Source: Acidobacteriaceae bacterium (GTDB lineage: Bacteria; Acidobacteriota; Terriglobia; Terriglobales; Acidobacteriaceae). Taken from it: a stretch of 58,243 nt of DNA. Position numbers and translations under genes: made by a program. Positions 2,037 to 19,185 of the stretch are shown one piece after another. The stretch is taken from assembly GCA_030037635.1 (NCBI GenBank), contig JASHQH010000061.1:1-58243 (forward strand), in the 5' to 3' direction. Positions within the stretch are counted from its first letter, which is position 1. The number at the start of each line of letters is the position of its first letter. The notes below the pieces were generated by a model. The model saw only the letters and a program-made list of their open reading frames with translations, did not search any database and was not told where the DNA came from.

Positions 2037-3152
2037 TCATTTCTTGGTTTTGGCCAGCTCGGGGCCGAGGAAATCATCGAGATTCCAGCCCGCCATCAAA
2101 TCTTCGTCGGCCGCGATTTTTCCGCTTTGGGGTGGCGCGCTGGCAGCCGGTCCCTCGGCCGAGAGGTAATTTTCAGTCAGTCCGTTGCGAAGCATCTCAA
2201 AGGCCTGCTCCGGCGTGCTGACATATTGAAACAGATCGAGGTCTTTGGGCGAGATGGCGCCGGTATCGACCAACACCTCGAGGTTGAAGACCTTCTTCCA
2301 ATATTCCGGGCCGTAAATCAAAACTGTGATCTTCTTCGTGACTTTTTGCGTCTGGGTCAAGGTGAGGATCTCAAACATCTCGTCGAGCGTGCCGTAACCT
2401 CCGGGAAAAACCACCAACGCCTTGGCCAGGTAAGCGAACCATAACTTGCGCATGAAGAAGTAGTGGAATTCGAAGTTGAGCGAGGGCGTGATGTAGGGGT
2501 TGGGCCGTTGCTCGAAGGGCAGCAGGATATTCATGCCGATGGTTTTGCCGCCGGCTTCGTAGGCGCCGCGGTTGGCGGCTTCCATAATGCCCGGACCACC
2601 GCCCGAAGTGACGACAAAGCGATGCTTGCGCGAAGGGATGGCTTTGGCCCATTGGGTAAGCAGCTGCGCAAGGCGCCGCGCGTCCTCGTAGTAGCGCGCC
2701 ATCTCCACCGCGGCGACCGCGCGCTTGCGCTGCAGATCAGTAGCTTTGCCGGCAGCGATCTCGCGGGCTTTGGCCGGCTGTTCCTCGCTGGGAGCGGGGC
2801 GCGTGGAGCCGGTGTTGTCGAGAAGCTCGAGGGCGTGATCGGCTTCTTCGCGCCCGCGAAAGCGCGCAGATCCGAAGAAGACGACGGTGTCCTGAATCTG
2901 CTCGCGGCGGAAACGGGACAGAGGCTCGAGAAACTCAGAGACGATGCGGATGATGCGGCCGTCGGCGCTGTTGAGGAAGGCAGTATTTTCGTAGGCCAGC
3001 GGGGCAGCCTCAAGCGGAGGGGGCGCTCCGTTAGCGGGGATCACGGCGCGAGGCGCAGCCTCGGGAACGGGAGTTTGAGGAGTTCCGGCAGACTTCTTCG
3101 GGCTCGCGCTTTCCTGTTCCCTGTTCCCTGTCGCCTGTGCCCTGTCTTTCAT
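2037..3152 (-). CDS. LOG-family (TIGR00730-type) nucleotide 5'-monophosphate phosphoribohydrolase
   Basis: 371 residues. The core Rossmann domain carries GGGPGIMEAANRG at about 184-196 and PGGYGTLDE at about 250-258, the two signatures of the LOG/'lysine decarboxylase-like' family. Characterised members cleave the N-glycosidic bond of (cytokinin) nucleoside monophosphates; older databases mislabel them lysine decarboxylases. The protein is longer than the usual 180-250 residues: about 60 N-terminal residues are Pro/Ala-rich and low complexity, and the first 13 or so codons lie in a CCTGTTCCC-type repeat, so the true start could be further in. The upstream small membrane protein gene ends only three bases before this start, suggesting cotranscription. 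Confidence 0.85.
   Translation of the reverse strand: MKDRAQATGNREQESASPKKSAGTPQTPVPEAAPRAVIPANGAPPPLEAAPLAYENTAFLNSADGRIIRIVSEFLEPLSRFRREQIQDTVVFFGSARFRGREEADHALELLDNTGSTRPAPSEEQPAKAREIAAGKATDLQRKRAVAAVEMARYYEDARRLAQLLTQWAKAIPSRKHRFVVTSGGGPGIMEAANRGAYEAGGKTIGMNILLPFEQRPNPYITPSLNFEFHYFFMRKLWFAYLAKALVVFPGGYGTLDEMFEILTLTQTQKVTKKITVLIYGPEYWKKVFNLEVLVDTGAISPKDLDLFQYVSTPEQAFEMLRNGLTENYLSAEGPAASAPPQSGKIAADEDLMAGWNLDDFLGPELAKTKK
3113..3147. repeat. CCTGTTCCC-type short tandem repeat over a gene start
   Basis: A run of CCTGTTCCCTGTTCCCTGT followed by degenerate CGCCTGTGCCCTGTC with 7-base periodicity. It covers the first codons of the LOG-family gene. Related words occur at 7481-7508 and, as GGGA-rich sequence, at 52113-52198. 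Confidence 0.6.
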
Positions 3153-3155
3153 CGT

Positions 3156-3524
3156 TCAACCATCCCTATGCCGAATCGCATCTTGAAAGGCGATCCATAA
3201 ATTCAGCAGACCCAACCCGGAGACAAGGCCGCGCACTGCACCCGAAGCTGCGAAGGCGGCAAGCCAGGGATATTGCAGGAGAATCGGATTCTGGTCCCAG
3301 AATGTGTGCGACCAGGGCGCCCAACAGACAAACAGTCCGATATAGATGCGCAGCATCACACGCAAGAACAATTCCATGCGTACCAGCCAGCGGGGAACGT
3401 GATGCTGGGGAGGGGCGGCCTGTGGATCGGGCGCGGAGCCCGATGCCGGATCCGTGGGCGGCCCAGCCAACGGAGCCGGGCTCGCTGCGAGCGTAAACGA
3501 TGCTGATTCCGGCTGCTGGACCAT
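3156..3524 (-). CDS. Hypothetical small membrane protein
   Basis: 122 residues, no family recognised. The first 45 residues are Pro/Ala/Ser-rich; residues about 46-120 contain a cluster of basic residues (RWLVRMELFLR) and hydrophobic stretches around LRIYIGLFVCWAPW and LLQYPWLAAFAASGAV, consistent with two membrane segments. It sits directly upstream of the LOG-family gene with only three bases between stop and start, so the two are probably one transcript. Codon use matches neighbouring genes, supporting it as real. Confidence 0.6.
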   Translation of the reverse strand: MVQQPESASFTLAASPAPLAGPPTDPASGSAPDPQAAPPQHHVPRWLVRMELFLRVMLRIYIGLFVCWAPWSHTFWDQNPILLQYPWLAAFAASGAVRGLVSGLGLLNLWIAFQDAIRHRDG

Positions 3525-13954: not shown

Positions 13955-14794
13955 TTACTCGAGGAACTCGCGGACAAACTGGTTTTGGCTGTGAACCAGT
14001 TCGTGGAGGGAGCCATCGAAGATCAGATGTCCCGCGTCGAGCATGAGGAATGTGGTGTCGGGATTGAATTGGCCTTCGGGGAGCGGGACCATGCGCTCCT
14101 GCTCGGGATCATAGCGGTGGTTGCAGAGGGTAAAAGCATCCTGAAGCCGGTGGGTGACGAGCAGGGACGGGGTCTTGCGCACATCGCGCTGCTTAACGAT
14201 GAGCTCGATGATGGTGTTGGAAGTGACGGGGTCGAGACCGCCGGTGGGAGAGTCATAGAGGATAAGCTCGGGCTGGTGGATGAGTGCGCGAGCGATGGCG
14301 ACACGACGCTTCATCCCTCCGGAGAGGCTGGGCGGAAAGAGAGCAAAAGTCTCATCCAGCCCGACAAAATGGAGCTCTTCGCGGACGCGGTGGTCGATTT
14401 CCTCGTCGGAGACACCCTCCTGAAGCAGCTGGTAGCCGACATTGTCGCGCACGCTGAGGGAGTCAAAGAGAGCGCCTTCCTGGAAAACCATGCCGGCGCG
14501 CGCGCGGAGCGGGAAGAGCTCCTGCTCGGGCATTTGGGAAATGTCTTCACCAAAGAGAACAACGCTGCCGTCCAGTGGGCGAAGCAGCCCGATGATGAGC
14601 TTGAGGAGCACGCTCTTGCCCACACCTGCCGGCCCCAGCAGGATTCGCGTCTCTGCCGGCCCAACGCTGAAAGTTATGCCCGCAAAGACCGGCGGGCCAT
14701 CGAAGGCAACGGAAAGATTGCGCAGGGCAACGACAGCCCCGGATCGGGAACCAGGAACAGGCGCAGGGGGTGCTGGCGTGGCGAGGTCGCTCAT
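13955..14794 (-). CDS. mlaF: ABC transporter ATP-binding protein, MlaF-like
   Basis: 279 residues. Walker A GPAGVGKS (54-61), Q-loop FQEGALF, signature LSGGMKRR (157-164), Walker B LILYDSPTGGLDP (177-189) and switch His in LLVTHRL. It would power phospholipid transfer between inner and outer membranes with the MlaE-like permease. The Walker B aspartate (181) is followed by Ser rather than the usual catalytic Glu, which is noteworthy. The first 20 residues are Pro/Ala-rich. It overlaps the permease gene by four bases (ATGA), so the two are translationally coupled. Confidence 0.88.
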   Translation of the reverse strand: MSDLATPAPPAPVPGSRSGAVVALRNLSVAFDGPPVFAGITFSVGPAETRILLGPAGVGKSVLLKLIIGLLRPLDGSVVLFGEDISQMPEQELFPLRARAGMVFQEGALFDSLSVRDNVGYQLLQEGVSDEEIDHRVREELHFVGLDETFALFPPSLSGGMKRRVAIARALIHQPELILYDSPTGGLDPVTSNTIIELIVKQRDVRKTPSLLVTHRLQDAFTLCNHRYDPEQERMVPLPEGQFNPDTTFLMLDAGHLIFDGSLHELVHSQNQFVREFLE

Positions 14795-15570
14795 GAAGGA
14801 AAAATCCAGAGCAGAAGATGGGTGACGAGGAAGTCGACGGCGATGATGAGTACGGAAGAATTGACCACCGCCGCGATGGTGGAACGGCCCACGCCCTCGG
14901 TGCCGCCCGAGGTTCTCATTCCATAGAAGCAGCCGATGGAAGCGATGATGTAGCCGAAGCAGACGGGTTTAACGAGTCCCTGGATGATGTCGGGGTAGCG
15001 CAGATGCTCGTAGGCCATGTGAAAGTACTGGGTGCCGTTCTGATGATTCAGGAAGACGGTAACGAAGGCGCCGCCCACGATGCCGAAGAAGTCGGCAATG
15101 ATGGTGAGCAGAAGCAGCATGATCACGCTGGAGACGACACGCGGGGTGACGAGCTTGCGCATGGGGTCGACACCCAGAGCGCGCATGGCGTCGATTTGCT
15201 CAGTGACGACCATCGACCCGAGTTCGCTGGCCATGGAGGACGCATTGCGTCCCGACACCATGATGCCGGTAAGGACTGCGCCGAGCTCGCGTACCATGGT
15301 GAGTGAAACGAACTGACCCGTGACGACTGCGGCGCCGAAGGCCGAGAGCGTAGCGCTGGACTGGAGTGCAAGCACGCCGCCGGTAAAGAAGCCGGACAGG
15401 ATGACGATGGGGATGGAACCGACTCCAATGATGTCGGATTGCATCAGGAAGTCGGTCCAATAGATAGGAGGGCGAACAAGATTGAGCAGGGCTCGCGCCG
15501 CGAACAAAGAGTATTCCTGGAGCGTGAGCACAATTTCTTTGGCTCTGCGGTCGATCCTGTTCGTCGCCAT
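14791..15570 (-). CDS. mlaE: MlaE-family lipid ABC transporter permease
   Basis: 259 residues with five or six membrane helices and the MlaE signature region: VLTGIMVSGRNASSMASELGSMVVTEQIDAMRALGVDP. This is the coupling-helix and glutamate-rich segment that contacts MlaF. The permease helps move phospholipids to keep outer-membrane asymmetry. It is upstream of, and overlaps, mlaF. The MCE-domain substrate-binding protein (MlaD) that normally follows is not next to the pair in this window. Confidence 0.9.
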   Translation of the reverse strand: MATNRIDRRAKEIVLTLQEYSLFAARALLNLVRPPIYWTDFLMQSDIIGVGSIPIVILSGFFTGGVLALQSSATLSAFGAAVVTGQFVSLTMVRELGAVLTGIMVSGRNASSMASELGSMVVTEQIDAMRALGVDPMRKLVTPRVVSSVIMLLLLTIIADFFGIVGGAFVTVFLNHQNGTQYFHMAYEHLRYPDIIQGLVKPVCFGYIIASIGCFYGMRTSGGTEGVGRSTIAAVVNSSVLIIAVDFLVTHLLLWIFPS

Positions 15571-15958
15571 GGTGTGTGGACCTGGAGATCAAGAAGGTTT
15601 GCGGCTCTTCAGAGGACAGGATAGCGCACCCTGGGCGCGCGCCAATGGCACGTGACCGGTTGCGATGGGTTGGGAATCAGGAATGATGATATAGTTAGAG
15701 CGGTTGTGCGCTGCGCGTGAGGCAAGGACCACCGGGAGGGGACCGGAATGGGCCGCGCAGCAGAAGTTGCTTCGGGCGAGCCAACGCAACGAACCGAGGC
15801 AGCGGGATGCAAATTGAAGCGCTCAGGTTGCCTTTCCTTCTGAATCGCTCAAGTTGCCTGTCTTTGAACGGGATCGACAATCCGCCCGTCTGCACTGGCG
15901 TCTGAAGAACTTCTGATATTGCCACTGGACGCATCCAACCGTTTATCAGGAGGAGATG
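15571..15958. other. Divergent intergenic region between mlaE and otsA
   Basis: About 390 bases with no convincing gene. It must hold promoters for both directions. A GATATAGTT -10-like element lies near 15687, and a 24-base imperfect direct repeat occurs at 15816 and 15842. An AGGAGGAG ribosome site ends the region. Confidence 0.5.
15816..15865 (+). promoter_or_regulatory. Imperfect direct repeat upstream of otsA
   Basis: Two 24-base copies (15816-15839 and 15842-15865) share GAA-CGCTCA-GTTGCCT-TC-TT with four mismatches and start 26 bases apart, roughly two and a half helical turns. They lie 95-145 bases before the trehalose synthase start and could be regulator sites or a small duplication. 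Confidence 0.35.
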
Positions 15959-18301
15959 ATGCACTCATTTCGCGTGCGGCTGATCCTTGCCTTAATCGCG
16001 AGCGTGACCGTGGTCTCCGTCGCCTCCACCTATTTTGACGTTCTAGCCCACCGGCACGTTTTGCGCGAAGACCTGGAACGGCGCACCAAGTGGATGGGCA
16101 TGAGCGTGCAGTCTGACGTGCAAAATGCAATGGTGACCGGCGATCCCACGTCATTGCTTCAAATTACCGAATTCCTGAAAACCCGCACCGGCGCGTTGGG
16201 GCTGGCCATATACGACCCGCACGGGCAGCTGCTGGCGAGCAGCATACCGGCGGAAATAATGGAGGGGCTGAAACGAGGCGTAATGCAGAAGTCGCTCCAG
16301 AACGGCGCCGAAATGGGTGCGTTCGGGCACGGAGGCGACTGGCAATGGCTGGAAGAGGTGTTTCCCATCCACAACGGGACGCAGTTGCAGGGAGCGATGG
16401 CCATTGTCGTGGATGCGGGATATATCCATGCTGCAGGAAATGACCTGTGGCGGCGGAGTTTCTGGCGGATCCTGGCGCTGGTGATTCTGATCGTGGCCAT
16501 TACGGTAGGGATGGTGCGCTGGTTTCTGATGCGGCCGATGAGCCGGATTGCCGAACGTCTTCGCCATTTGAGAACCGGCCGCGCGGAAGACGTCCCGCTG
16601 CCGTCAACGGTGGAGCTGAGCCTTTTTTCGTCGCTGGCGCGCGAAATGGAGAACCTGGCGGAGAGCCTGAAGGCGGCGCGAGCCGCAGCGGCGGCCGAGG
16701 CGCGGCTGCGCGATGCAGGCGAGCTTTTGTGGACTGCCGAGCGGCTGGCCGTGCATGTTCGCAACAAGGCCGGCTCAAGCCGCATTTTCGTGGTTTCGAA
16801 CCGCGAGCCGTATATGCACATCCAAAAGGGCCGGGAAACGGTGTGCGTGGTGCCGCCCAGCGGCTTGGTGACGGCGCTGGAACCGGTGCTGCGTGCCTGT
16901 GACGGGGTGTGGGTGGCCAGCGGCAGCGGAGACGCCGATGCAACCGCGGTGGACGAATTCGACCGGCTGCGCGTGCCGCCCGACGAGCCCCGCTATACGC
17001 TGCGCCGGGTGTGGCTTTCGCAAGAGGAGGAAGCACAATATTACGATGGCTTCGCCAACGAGGGATTGTGGCCGCTGTGCCACATTGCCCACACGCGCCC
17101 CATTTTTCGCGCCGCAGACTGGGAGTGCTACCAGCGCGTAAACCAGCGCTTTGCCGATGCCCTGCTGGCAGAGATGGAAGACAGCGCGGAACCGGTCGTG
17201 TTTGCGCAGGATTACCACCTGGCGCTGCTGCCGCAGCTGGTGAAGAAGGCGAGGCCGGATGCGCGCGTGGCTATCTTCTGGCACATTCCATGGCCCAACC
17301 CCGAAGCCTTCGGAATTTGCCCGTGGCAGGCCGAGCTGCTCGACGGGTTGCTGGGCGCCGACCTGATCGGTTTCCACATTCCTCTCCATTGTCACAACTT
17401 CCTGGCGACGGTGGACCGGGTATTGGAATCGCGCACTGATCGCGAGCACATGTCGGTGCGCCGTCGCGGGCATTCGACGGTGGTGAGGCCCTACCCGGTG
17501 AGCGTGACATTTGATGGAGCCTCGCGGCCCGACGCCATGTGGGCGAGGGTGGAGATCGAGCAGGAGCGGGAAGCAGCGCGGGAGCGATTGCAGAGCGAGT
17601 TCGGGGTGCGCGCCGAGTCCCTGATGGTCGGCGTGGACCGATTGGATTATACGAAGGGCATCGTGGAGAGGCTGGAGGCGGTTGGGCAACTGTTCGAAGA
17701 TTATCCATGGCACCGGGAACGGCTGACCATGGTGCAGATTGCCGCGCCCAGCCGGACGCGTATTCCCAGCTACGCTGATTTGCAGCGCCGCGTGCGCGAG
17801 ACGGTGGAGCGCGTGAACTCGACCCACCAGACCGCGCGCTGGAAGCCGATTGTGCTCATCGAGCAGCAATGCGATCACGAAGAGGTACGGCACTGGTATC
17901 GTGCCGCAGATATGTGCCTGGTGACCTCGCTGCATGACGGCATGAACCTGGTGGCTAAGGAATTCGTGGCGGCACGCGATGACGAGGATGGCGTACTGGT
18001 GCTGAGCAAATTCACCGGCGCGGCAGTGGAACTGCGGGATGCTTTGCTGGTGAATCCTTACGACATCGCCGGAGTCGCCGAAGCCATCCATCGCGGCCTG
18101 GAGATGAGCTCAGACGAGCGCCGGGAGCGGATGCGGCGGATGCGGCGCCAGGTGATGGAATACAACATTTACCTCTGGGCGGCGAAAATCCTCGGCGACC
18201 TGCGCGACGTGCGCCTGGAACCGGCGGAGGGCGCCGAGTTGAGACGCATAACGTCTGCGAGCGTTTCTTCAGGCGAGCTGGCGATGAAAAAACTGGCGTG
18301 A
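15959..18301 (+). CDS. otsA: Membrane sensor-HAMP fused to trehalose-6-phosphate synthase
   Basis: About 780 residues; the ATG at 15959 lies four bases past AGGAGG (15956 is an equal-frame alternative). Residues 8-26 and 169-191 are membrane helices bracketing a periplasmic sensor-like region of about 140 residues. A HAMP-like linker (192-245) and an Ala/Arg-rich coiled segment follow. From about 275 to 730 it is a GT20 enzyme that joins UDP- or GDP-glucose to glucose-6-phosphate: [34 protein letters not shown] (Arg/Lys donor ligands), and [12 protein letters not shown] with its Asp and Glu are all intact. The glycine loop reads PPSGL rather than the usual GGL. otsB overlaps its stop, so trehalose synthesis seems membrane-tethered and possibly signal-controlled. 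Confidence 0.93.
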
Positions 18302-19185
18302 GAGCGGGCACGGGCGTGAAAAGCGAAGCGGCAAAGCGGCTGGATGAGTTTTTCCGCGGCTTTAACGGCGCGGGGCGGTCTTTGTTGCTTCTGGATTACG
18401 ATGGAACGCTGGCGCCGTTCCGTGTCGACCGTTTCAAGGCATTTCCGTGGGCGGGCGTGCGCGCCCTCCTGAGCCTGATCCAGGACCAGGAAAAAACTCG
18501 CCTGGTGGTCGTCACCGGCCGCCCTCCTGCAGAGATTGTTCCGCTGGTGGGGATAAAGCCTGCTCCAGAGGTGTGGGGGTTGCACGGCGCAGAGCGCCTG
18601 CACCGCGACGGCCGGCACGAGGTGGAGCGTATTCCCGATGCGGCCGGCGCTCAGCTCGATGCGCTTTGCGAACAACTCCGCCACGACGCGCTGGGAGGGC
18701 TGTTCGAGGAGAAACCGAACGCCGCCTGCATCCACTGGCGCGGGATTCCGCCCGCGCGGGCCAAGGCAATTGAGAAGCGGACCCGGGCGCTGTTCGAGCC
18801 GCTCGCTCAAGTGGACGGGCTGAGGCTGCTCGAGTTCGAGGCCGGGCTTGAATTGCGCATCGGGCGCGACAAAGGCGAAGCCGTGCGGGTGCTTCTTGAG
18901 GAGATGCACGACGGACAGCCCCATCCGGCCGCTTATCTAGGTGACGACCTGACAGATGAAGCAGCGTTTCGCGCCATCAAAAGCTACGGACTGGGTGTGC
19001 TGGTGAAGCGCAAGCGGCGTCCCACGGCTGCCGATGTATGGCTGCCGCCTCCGCAGGGAGTGAGACTGTTCTTGAAGCGATGGTGGCAGGCCTGCCGCGG
19101 CATCGAAATCGATGCCTTGACGGCGCAAAGCGGCATGGCCGCCGCGCCCACCGCGGGGTGCGCAGCCGCCGCGGATGGCGGCTGA
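18298..19185 (+). CDS. otsB: Trehalose-6-phosphate phosphatase
   Basis: 295 residues, HAD-IIB phosphatase that converts trehalose-6-phosphate to trehalose. Nucleophile motif LLDYDGTLAPF (Asp33, Asp35), motif II VVTGRP, cap motif GLHGAE, and the late acidic motif YLGDDLTDEAAF are present. The GTG start at 18298 overlaps the otsA stop (GTGA), giving translational coupling; a GTG at 18316 is the alternative. The C-terminal 30 residues are Ala/Gly-rich and look dispensable. With the upstream synthase it completes trehalose formation for osmotic or desiccation stress. Confidence 0.93.
   Translation: MRAGTGVKSEAAKRLDEFFRGFNGAGRSLLLLDYDGTLAPFRVDRFKAFPWAGVRALLSLIQDQEKTRLVVVTGRPPAEIVPLVGIKPAPEVWGLHGAERLHRDGRHEVERIPDAAGAQLDALCEQLRHDALGGLFEEKPNAACIHWRGIPPARAKAIEKRTRALFEPLAQVDGLRLLEFEAGLELRIGRDKGEAVRVLLEEMHDGQPHPAAYLGDDLTDEAAFRAIKSYGLGVLVKRKRRPTAADVWLPPPQGVRLFLKRWWQACRGIEIDALTAQSGMAAAPTAGCAAAADGG

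Follow-up and report, generated by a model that had tools for sequence, protein, structure and literature searches.

A likely membrane receptor enzyme coupling a Cache-type sensor and a HAMP-type linker to trehalose-6-phosphate synthase in an Acidobacteriaceae bacterium

The window analyzed here, that is, the whole 58,243-nucleotide stretch of contig JASHQH010000061.1 (assembly GCA_030037635.1) from an Acidobacteriaceae bacterium, carries a gene whose single open reading frame (ORF) appears to join a periplasmic sensor, a HAMP-type linker and a complete glycosyltransferase domain of the GT20, or trehalose-6-phosphate synthase, type (Table 1). An otsB-type trehalose-phosphatase gene follows, starting 4 bases inside the end of the synthase ORF. 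We consider it likely that the protein is a membrane receptor enzyme, in which a Cache sensor and a HAMP unit couple an external cue, probably osmotic or ionic, to the synthesis of trehalose 6-phosphate. Because the Shine-Dalgarno-like sequence touches the first ATG of the ORF, the second ATG, with its better spacing, is the likelier start; a start codon at the equivalent of this second Met is found in many close relatives, a weak indication in that the script picked the codon nearest to the expected place. Scans for promoters and terminators returned one of each, as against means of 0.8 and 3.9 in shuffled sequence. The genes for an MlaE permease and an ABC ATPase, at 13955-15570 on the minus strand, run divergently from the synthase gene, and the cluster of MlaE genes comprises the window and 10 of the 80 related loci described below.

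Table 1. Features of the synthase gene, its phosphatase neighbor and selected ORFs of relatives. Positions refer to the window, or to the locus of a relative where an L number is given.
Feature	Position	Strand	Basis
Predicted Cache-HAMP-GT20 protein (membrane-sensor trehalose-phosphate synthase)	15956..18301	+	781-residue ORF, no internal stop
Shine-Dalgarno-like GGAGGAG	15949..15955	+	read in sequence; favors second ATG (15959)
Transmembrane helix 1 (about residues 8-27)	15977..16036	+	hydropathy; AlphaFold2 helix 2-61
Predicted periplasmic single-Cache/PDC-like domain and helical stalk (about residues 28-163)	16037..16444	+	AlphaFold2; Foldseek; Pfam sCache_3_2 in members
Transmembrane helix 2 (about residues 164-190)	16445..16525	+	hydropathy; AlphaFold2 helix 155-207
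HAMP-type linker (residues 191-240; P194 close to helix 1 start, connector 208-219 variable, E230 in helix 2)	16526..16675	+	hhalign
Coiled linker, conserved (residues 241-275; WTAERL motif, 259-264)	16676..16780	+	identity; near-constant length
Complete GT20 (trehalose-6-phosphate synthase-type) domain (residues 276-750)	16781..18205	+	Pfam; Foldseek; residues
Trehalose-phosphatase gene (otsB type)	18298..19185	+	PF02358, E 3.1e-15; TIGR00685, 79.1 bits (cut-off 68.05)
MscS-DUF5752 ORFs	L029:2287-3660; L030:8057-9430; L032:2255-3631; L060:7988-9376; L063:8012-9415		Pfam
Antiporter-GT20 single ORFs, examples	L149:2086-4842; L147:2792-5548	+	Pfam

Relatives were drawn from a scan of one genome per species over 84,980 species, of which the best 80 loci of at least 585 matching stretches were retained; two of the six search patterns lay in the N-terminal part, so this set favors the sensor architecture. 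The alignment of 76 members omits L017, L037, L071 and L079, which have a stop in the read-out, and L023, which is cut by the contig end; 60 of these rows make up the full-length alignment (A2), and an extra set of 20 stretches was chosen for unusual ORF length or paralogy. A preliminary description of this DNA, made from the sequence alone, had proposed that two membrane helices bracket a periplasmic region, and this is borne out by a Kyte-Doolittle profile with two hydrophobic peaks (windows from residues 9 and 169, segments near 9-27 and 169-187) as well as by the AlphaFold2 model. Exactly two such peaks lie within the first 240 residues in 74 of the 76 members, and three in the other two. 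The model, a monomer built from 76 sequences (mean predicted local distance difference test score 85.6), contains a helix at 2-61, an alpha/beta domain at 64-153 and a helix at 155-207, followed by a loop at 208-219 and further helices at 220-258 and 261-272. Searched with Foldseek, its N-terminal part matches the full-length WalK integrative model 9a5d_A (E 9.7e-8, 254 columns), the WalK ectodomain 7dud_A (E 3.3e-5) and CitA 2j80_B (E 3.9e-4), with DcuS and DctB also among the nearest solved folds. Pfam gave no Cache match in the window protein itself; run on each member, it names SMP_2 in 19 of 76 and sCache_3_2 in 18 of 76 (best E 1.3e-8). Because of the modeled fold, the Foldseek matches to WalK, CitA and DcuS and the presence of sCache_3_2 in members, the periplasmic domain is assigned to the Cache (PDC) type, WalK/CitA-like.

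The HAMP-like linker that had been proposed behind the second helix is supported by profile comparison. Pfam HAMP (PF00672) is not found in the window protein at E<=1, a negative that might have refuted the linker on the terms set in the preliminary description, and at E<=0.01 it is called in 2 of the 76 members, yet a profile-profile comparison of residues 186-258 with kinase HAMPs (hhalign) gives a probability of 97.4% and an E of 9.7e-12 over 70 columns, with a score of 58.1 as against 13.0 or less in two kinds of control, 20 shuffles of the columns and four segments taken from elsewhere in the protein. The N-terminal part aligns with the kinases over 252 columns (E 2.2e-30). The linker was compared with nine kinases and the longer segments with eight; all are from the phylum of the window, Pfam calls HAMP, HisKA and HATPase_c in all nine, and L170, which was scanned alongside them, is a GT20 protein. 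They are a non-random sample, picked from the better matches of the sensor profile (A1), and the comparison therefore shows homology, not frequency. By this sequence comparison the linker appears to be a divergent HAMP, homologous to those of kinases. P194 and E230 are invariant in all 76 members, and position 226 is Pro in 69 of them and Ser in the window protein. Pfam and NCBIfam scans of the single protein were rejected as a verdict on HAMP or Cache: they missed both in the window protein, and family profiles resolved them.

The path from the second membrane helix into the enzyme is nearly free of insertions and deletions. The coiled segment noted earlier ahead of the enzyme is present as a conserved linker, with a mean pairwise column identity of 0.54 over residues 241-275, as compared to 0.62 in GT20 and 0.29 in the periplasmic part, which is the folded region with the lowest conservation; A241, A245, E248, R252, W259, T260 and L264 are kept at 96-100%. 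The landmark distances D153-W165, W165-P194 and P194-R206 are constant in 76 of 76 sequences, as are E230-A245 and W259-L264, while E230-W259 keeps one length in 72 of 76 and W259-N282, which leads into the enzyme, in 75 of 76. The HAMP connector R206-E230, in turn, spans anything between 20 and 31, and length differences are also seen in the periplasmic part, in 7 of the 76 members for R43-G82 and in 17 for G82-D153. A fixed helical register combined with a free connector would be a requirement of a signaling HAMP and not of a plain anchor.

That the GT20 domain is complete, as first described, is confirmed by the PF00982 match (E 4.5e-121), which spans model positions 2-472 of 473. Foldseek groups it with the Mycobacterium thermoresistibile trehalose-6-phosphate synthase 5jio (E 2.7e-39, 37% identity). 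In all 35 sensor-type rows of the GT20 tree (32 picked by hand, the window, L103 and L104) the equivalents, in gene numbering, of Escherichia coli R10, G23, Y77, W86, D131, H155, R263, K268, R301, D362 and E370 are kept; matched by our own alignment, on which all positional equivalences to the mycobacterial enzyme rest, eight of these eleven are among the contacts named for mycobacterial OtsA in PMC6879718. Since most OtsA substrate-binding residues are kept, a dead enzyme is unlikely. There are also changes typical of the clade, W42 of E. coli being His, Ser or others in most rows and R361 being His; the equivalent of R361 is mycobacterial R384, part of an allosteric site (PMC6879718). Of the three positions tied to donor-nucleotide specificity in the same paper, one is E. 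coli-like, one mycobacterial-like and one neither. The glycine loop was correctly read as PPSGL in the preliminary description, which considered it unusual; Ser is in fact the family majority at this position (58 of 76 members; the other 18 have Gly), all 76 keep the Gly that follows, and the loop was rejected as a mark of altered chemistry. Among NCBIfam models the highest scores go to PRK14501 (493 bits) and the OtsA equivalog TIGR02400 (443 bits, cut-off 564.85), both below their own cut-offs, followed by the glucosylglycerol-phosphate synthase TIGR02398 (310.2 bits, cut-off 569) and a second OtsA model, PRK10117 (264.8 bits). Because the two best models score below their cut-offs, the identity of the product has to be deduced, and the sequence points to trehalose 6-phosphate. 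The synthase is the only GT20 match in the window genome, which is 91% complete. The genome also encodes TreY (L155, G000:C217:14218-16848; 940.6 bits, over the cut-off) and can probably make trehalose from glucans as well.

On a tree of 87 GT20 domains (rooted for drawing only, with long branches for E. coli OtsA, L114 and L140), the enzymes with a membrane module and three soluble ones, 55 rows in all, split from the 32 others with support of 100/99. Among these 32 are E. coli OtsA and some long ORFs headed by GT20, which are probably synthase-phosphatase fusions. The sensor-type domains form a single group (support 100/91). A second group (L135-L138, L141-L143 and L154) has the same layout behind a divergent sensor of two transmembrane helices and a periplasmic part, recognized by eye and, in some, by weak matches of the A1 profile; in the four that were scanned, GT20 is the sole domain that Pfam names. 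Both kinds of sensor are found in some genomes, for example G346. Moreover, in nine genomes of the window's phylum (L144-L151 and L153) an antiporter replaces the sensor, in one reading frame with GT20. Pfam recognizes Na_H_Exchanger in eight of these fusions (E 2.3e-18 to 5e-25), and L145, the one remaining, was recognized by its match to the antiporter part of L149 (E 4.7e-153). One soluble protein lies inside the group, so that the antiporter label needs two changes on the tree. The ORF of L152 (2578-4866) was rejected as a fusion and counted as soluble, as its front half overlaps an ORF in another frame (2258-3421) that looks cysteine desulfurase-like by eye. In L145, L146, L148, L153 and L154 the true start probably lies further in, the long front being open frame upstream of it.

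The phylogenetic spread of the architecture, which had been left as a point to check, proved wide. The sensor part can be aligned in 79 of the 80 best loci, the remaining one being L023 at its contig end, and the records carry about ten phylum names in all (Acidobacteriota, Nitrospirota, Methylomirabilota, Rokubacteria, Elusimicrobia, Omnitrophota, Bacteroidetes, Deltaproteobacteria, Edwardsbacteria, Patescibacteria/Daviesbacteria and Verrucomicrobia), of which single cases may be misbinned because most relatives are metagenome bins. The synthase protein is matched in 49 of 60 relatives, not all of them with the sensor. Among 396 genomes of the window's phylum, GT20 is matched in 147 and over the cut-off in 129. 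The architecture was counted only where a sensor match adjoins a GT20 match, which gives a lower bound: 40 GT20 genes in 37 genomes follow a listed sensor match by 0-198 bases, and 39 pairs, in at least 36 genomes, are in frame, the second, divergent kind of sensor included. At G132:C19:14598-16630 the sensor and GT20 matches are adjacent in different frames, which might be explained by a frameshift, by an error of assembly or by two separate genes. The A1 profile alone was rejected as a count, since many of the at least 173 genomes that it matches must owe this to kinases. The relatives in many genomes also dispose of the idea that the architecture is unique to the window genome.

Neighboring genes were clustered by BLAST, and Pfam was used to check two otsB-type members (those of the window and L002) and three of the TreT type. 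An otsB-type gene is found in 47 of 81 loci (the 80 and the window), directly downstream of the synthase in 40, and is not in the covered stretch of the other 34. A TreT-type trehalose synthase is encoded in 31 of the 80 loci (for example L060:9376-10620; PF21269 in the three scanned), and TreT-type and otsB-type genes occur together in 20 loci. A DUF5752 cluster has 27 members in 25 loci; eight of the ten scanned carry DUF5752 and two, one each from L031 and L046, are MscS proteins without it, so DUF5752 is present in at most 24 loci. Five loci combine the MscS beta domain and DUF5752 in one ORF (Table 1), and in L031 a separate MscS gene adjoins the DUF5752 gene. A Na_H_Exchanger gene is present in five of the 80 loci (L030, L035, L060, L066 and L071). 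MscS-type channels respond to osmotic downshift by opening; upshift brings a rise in potassium and in solutes such as trehalose (PMC10117811).

How might such a protein work? We propose that it acts as a dimer, in which the HAMP bundle would shift on a cue from outside the cytoplasm, most probably one tied to osmotic or ionic conditions. The shift would travel along the linker and open or close the two Rossmann domains of the enzyme, so that the rate at which trehalose 6-phosphate is made would change rapidly, with no need for transcription; the phosphatase encoded by the overlapping gene would then free trehalose as a compatible solute. An osmotic or ionic cue is suggested by the relatives, because TreT-type, MscS and Na_H_Exchanger genes occur in some of their loci and antiporter fusions in the same clade. 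Four features lend further weight to the earlier suggestion that a cue from outside may act directly on trehalose synthesis: the nearly indel-free helices, the otsB-type neighbor, the antiporter fusions and the MscS genes in the loci of some relatives. More tentatively, and as a possibility that we rate somewhat below an even chance, this GT20 branch may be a set of plug-in outputs of membrane modules (Cache-HAMP in many phyla, antiporters in some Acidobacteriota and MscS-DUF5752 partners in some loci) that together form a direct, transcription-free circuit for ions and turgor.

Several observations weigh against the receptor-enzyme interpretation. HAMP helix 2 usually starts with an acidic residue, and at 223, where this start falls, the residue is hydrophobic, in a linker that Pfam does not name in the window protein. 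Inspection by eye of the periplasmic part of the alignment showed no group of invariant polar residues such as would point to a ligand pocket. TreT and DUF5752 were searched for in the window's own genome and not found, nor is there an MscS or antiporter family among the window's neighbors in the clusters listed, so that the osmotic link rests on relatives; even there, MscS and antiporter genes occur in few loci, and their counts are raw. As TreY is also present, the synthase is not the only trehalose route of the genome. In the enzyme, the TIGR02400 cut-off is missed, and two mycobacterial contacts are replaced by His: Gln146, for which E. coli also has His, and, in 73 of 76 members, Arg365, described as less conserved outside mycobacteria (PMC6879718). 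Finally, no experiment on any member of the family was found, and among the papers listed in a search of the open-licence literature (subscription journals and preprints were outside its scope) there was none on membrane or HAMP-linked trehalose-phosphate synthases, antiporter-GT20 fusions or DUF5752, a word that occurs in no paper of the literature covered.

The N-terminal part might be a degenerate sensor that serves as a mere membrane anchor and holds a constitutive enzyme, for example, near transporters. The low conservation of the periplasmic part and the divergence of the HAMP motif fit such a role, and so does the sister group with an antiporter as its membrane part, where tethering itself may be selected. 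An anchor, however, would need neither helices of fixed length nor a linker that is near-invariant at seven positions, and the periplasmic part stays alignable in almost all of the best relatives, across about ten phylum names; we regard an anchor as unlikely. The main rival to an osmotic or ionic cue is a small molecule: the Cache domain may bind a small carboxylate or another metabolite, and nutrients would then prompt the enzyme to store trehalose as a reserve for carbon or stress. Binding of small molecules is common among Cache domains, and the nearest solved folds of the sensor include the citrate and C4-dicarboxylate sensors CitA, DcuS and DctB. In contrast, ions and turgor are the cues indicated by the antiporter fusions in the clade and by the MscS genes present at some sensor-type loci, and an invariant ligand-binding set was not seen by eye. 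A metabolite cue thus keeps a sizeable, if minority, share of our belief.

With respect to the output, the enzyme could make a product other than trehalose 6-phosphate, such as a different sugar phosphate. Its clade stands apart from canonical OtsA, the OtsA equivalog cut-off is missed, PRK10117 scores below the glucosylglycerol-phosphate model, the changes at W42 and R361 are typical of the clade and 34 of the 81 loci show no otsB-type gene in the covered stretch. We nevertheless find another product quite improbable, because the acceptor- and donor-binding positions that were checked are kept, the two highest-scoring models are those of trehalose-phosphate synthases and the neighbors include otsB-type and TreT-type genes. 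Alternatively, trehalose 6-phosphate itself could be the output, an intracellular messenger made on demand in the manner of cyclic nucleotides. The layout of the protein is that of the HAMP-linked cyclases, and some loci show no otsB-type gene, but a phosphatase gene lies directly downstream of the synthase in about half of the loci, and a messenger role seems to us very improbable.

The receptor-enzyme reading sets the protein beside several known systems. It shares with the soluble GT20 enzyme OtsA (E. coli 1uqt, M. thermoresistibile 5jij/5jio) the fold, most active-site residues and the pairing with an otsB-type gene; OtsA, however, has no membrane or sensor part, falls outside the clade of the window synthase on the tree and has an Arg just before the DGMN motif where that clade has His. 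Membrane histidine kinases of the WalK/CitA/DcuS type have the same unit of transmembrane helix, Cache, transmembrane helix and HAMP, but their output is HisKA-HATPase, whereas that of the window protein is a glycosyltransferase. HAMP-linked adenylyl cyclases and diguanylate cyclases are one-protein receptors with an enzymatic output behind HAMP; their output is a messenger and that of the window protein the precursor of an osmolyte, and DgcN/YfiN appears only as a weak match (E 0.011). The antiporter-GT20 fusions belong to the same GT20 clade and carry an N-terminal membrane module on the same enzyme, but this module is of the Na_H_Exchanger family and is followed by a short junction in which no HAMP-like linker was seen.

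The onset of compatible-solute synthesis after a shock has mostly been described in bacteria in terms of transcription, potassium and soluble enzymes. Here, a signal from outside the cell could switch a trehalose-making enzyme directly, and we infer that trehalose-6-phosphate synthesis is under direct, post-translational control by an external cue. If this is true, a receptor with an osmolyte enzyme as its output would be the shortest possible route to solute synthesis, and a metabolic glycosyltransferase would join the outputs known behind HAMP. The relatives come from many lineages, including soil and groundwater bins according to the record titles, and give DUF5752 and the antiporter fusions a context that can be tested. 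Moreover, interchangeable modules on one enzyme would make chimeras an easy test of signal transfer.

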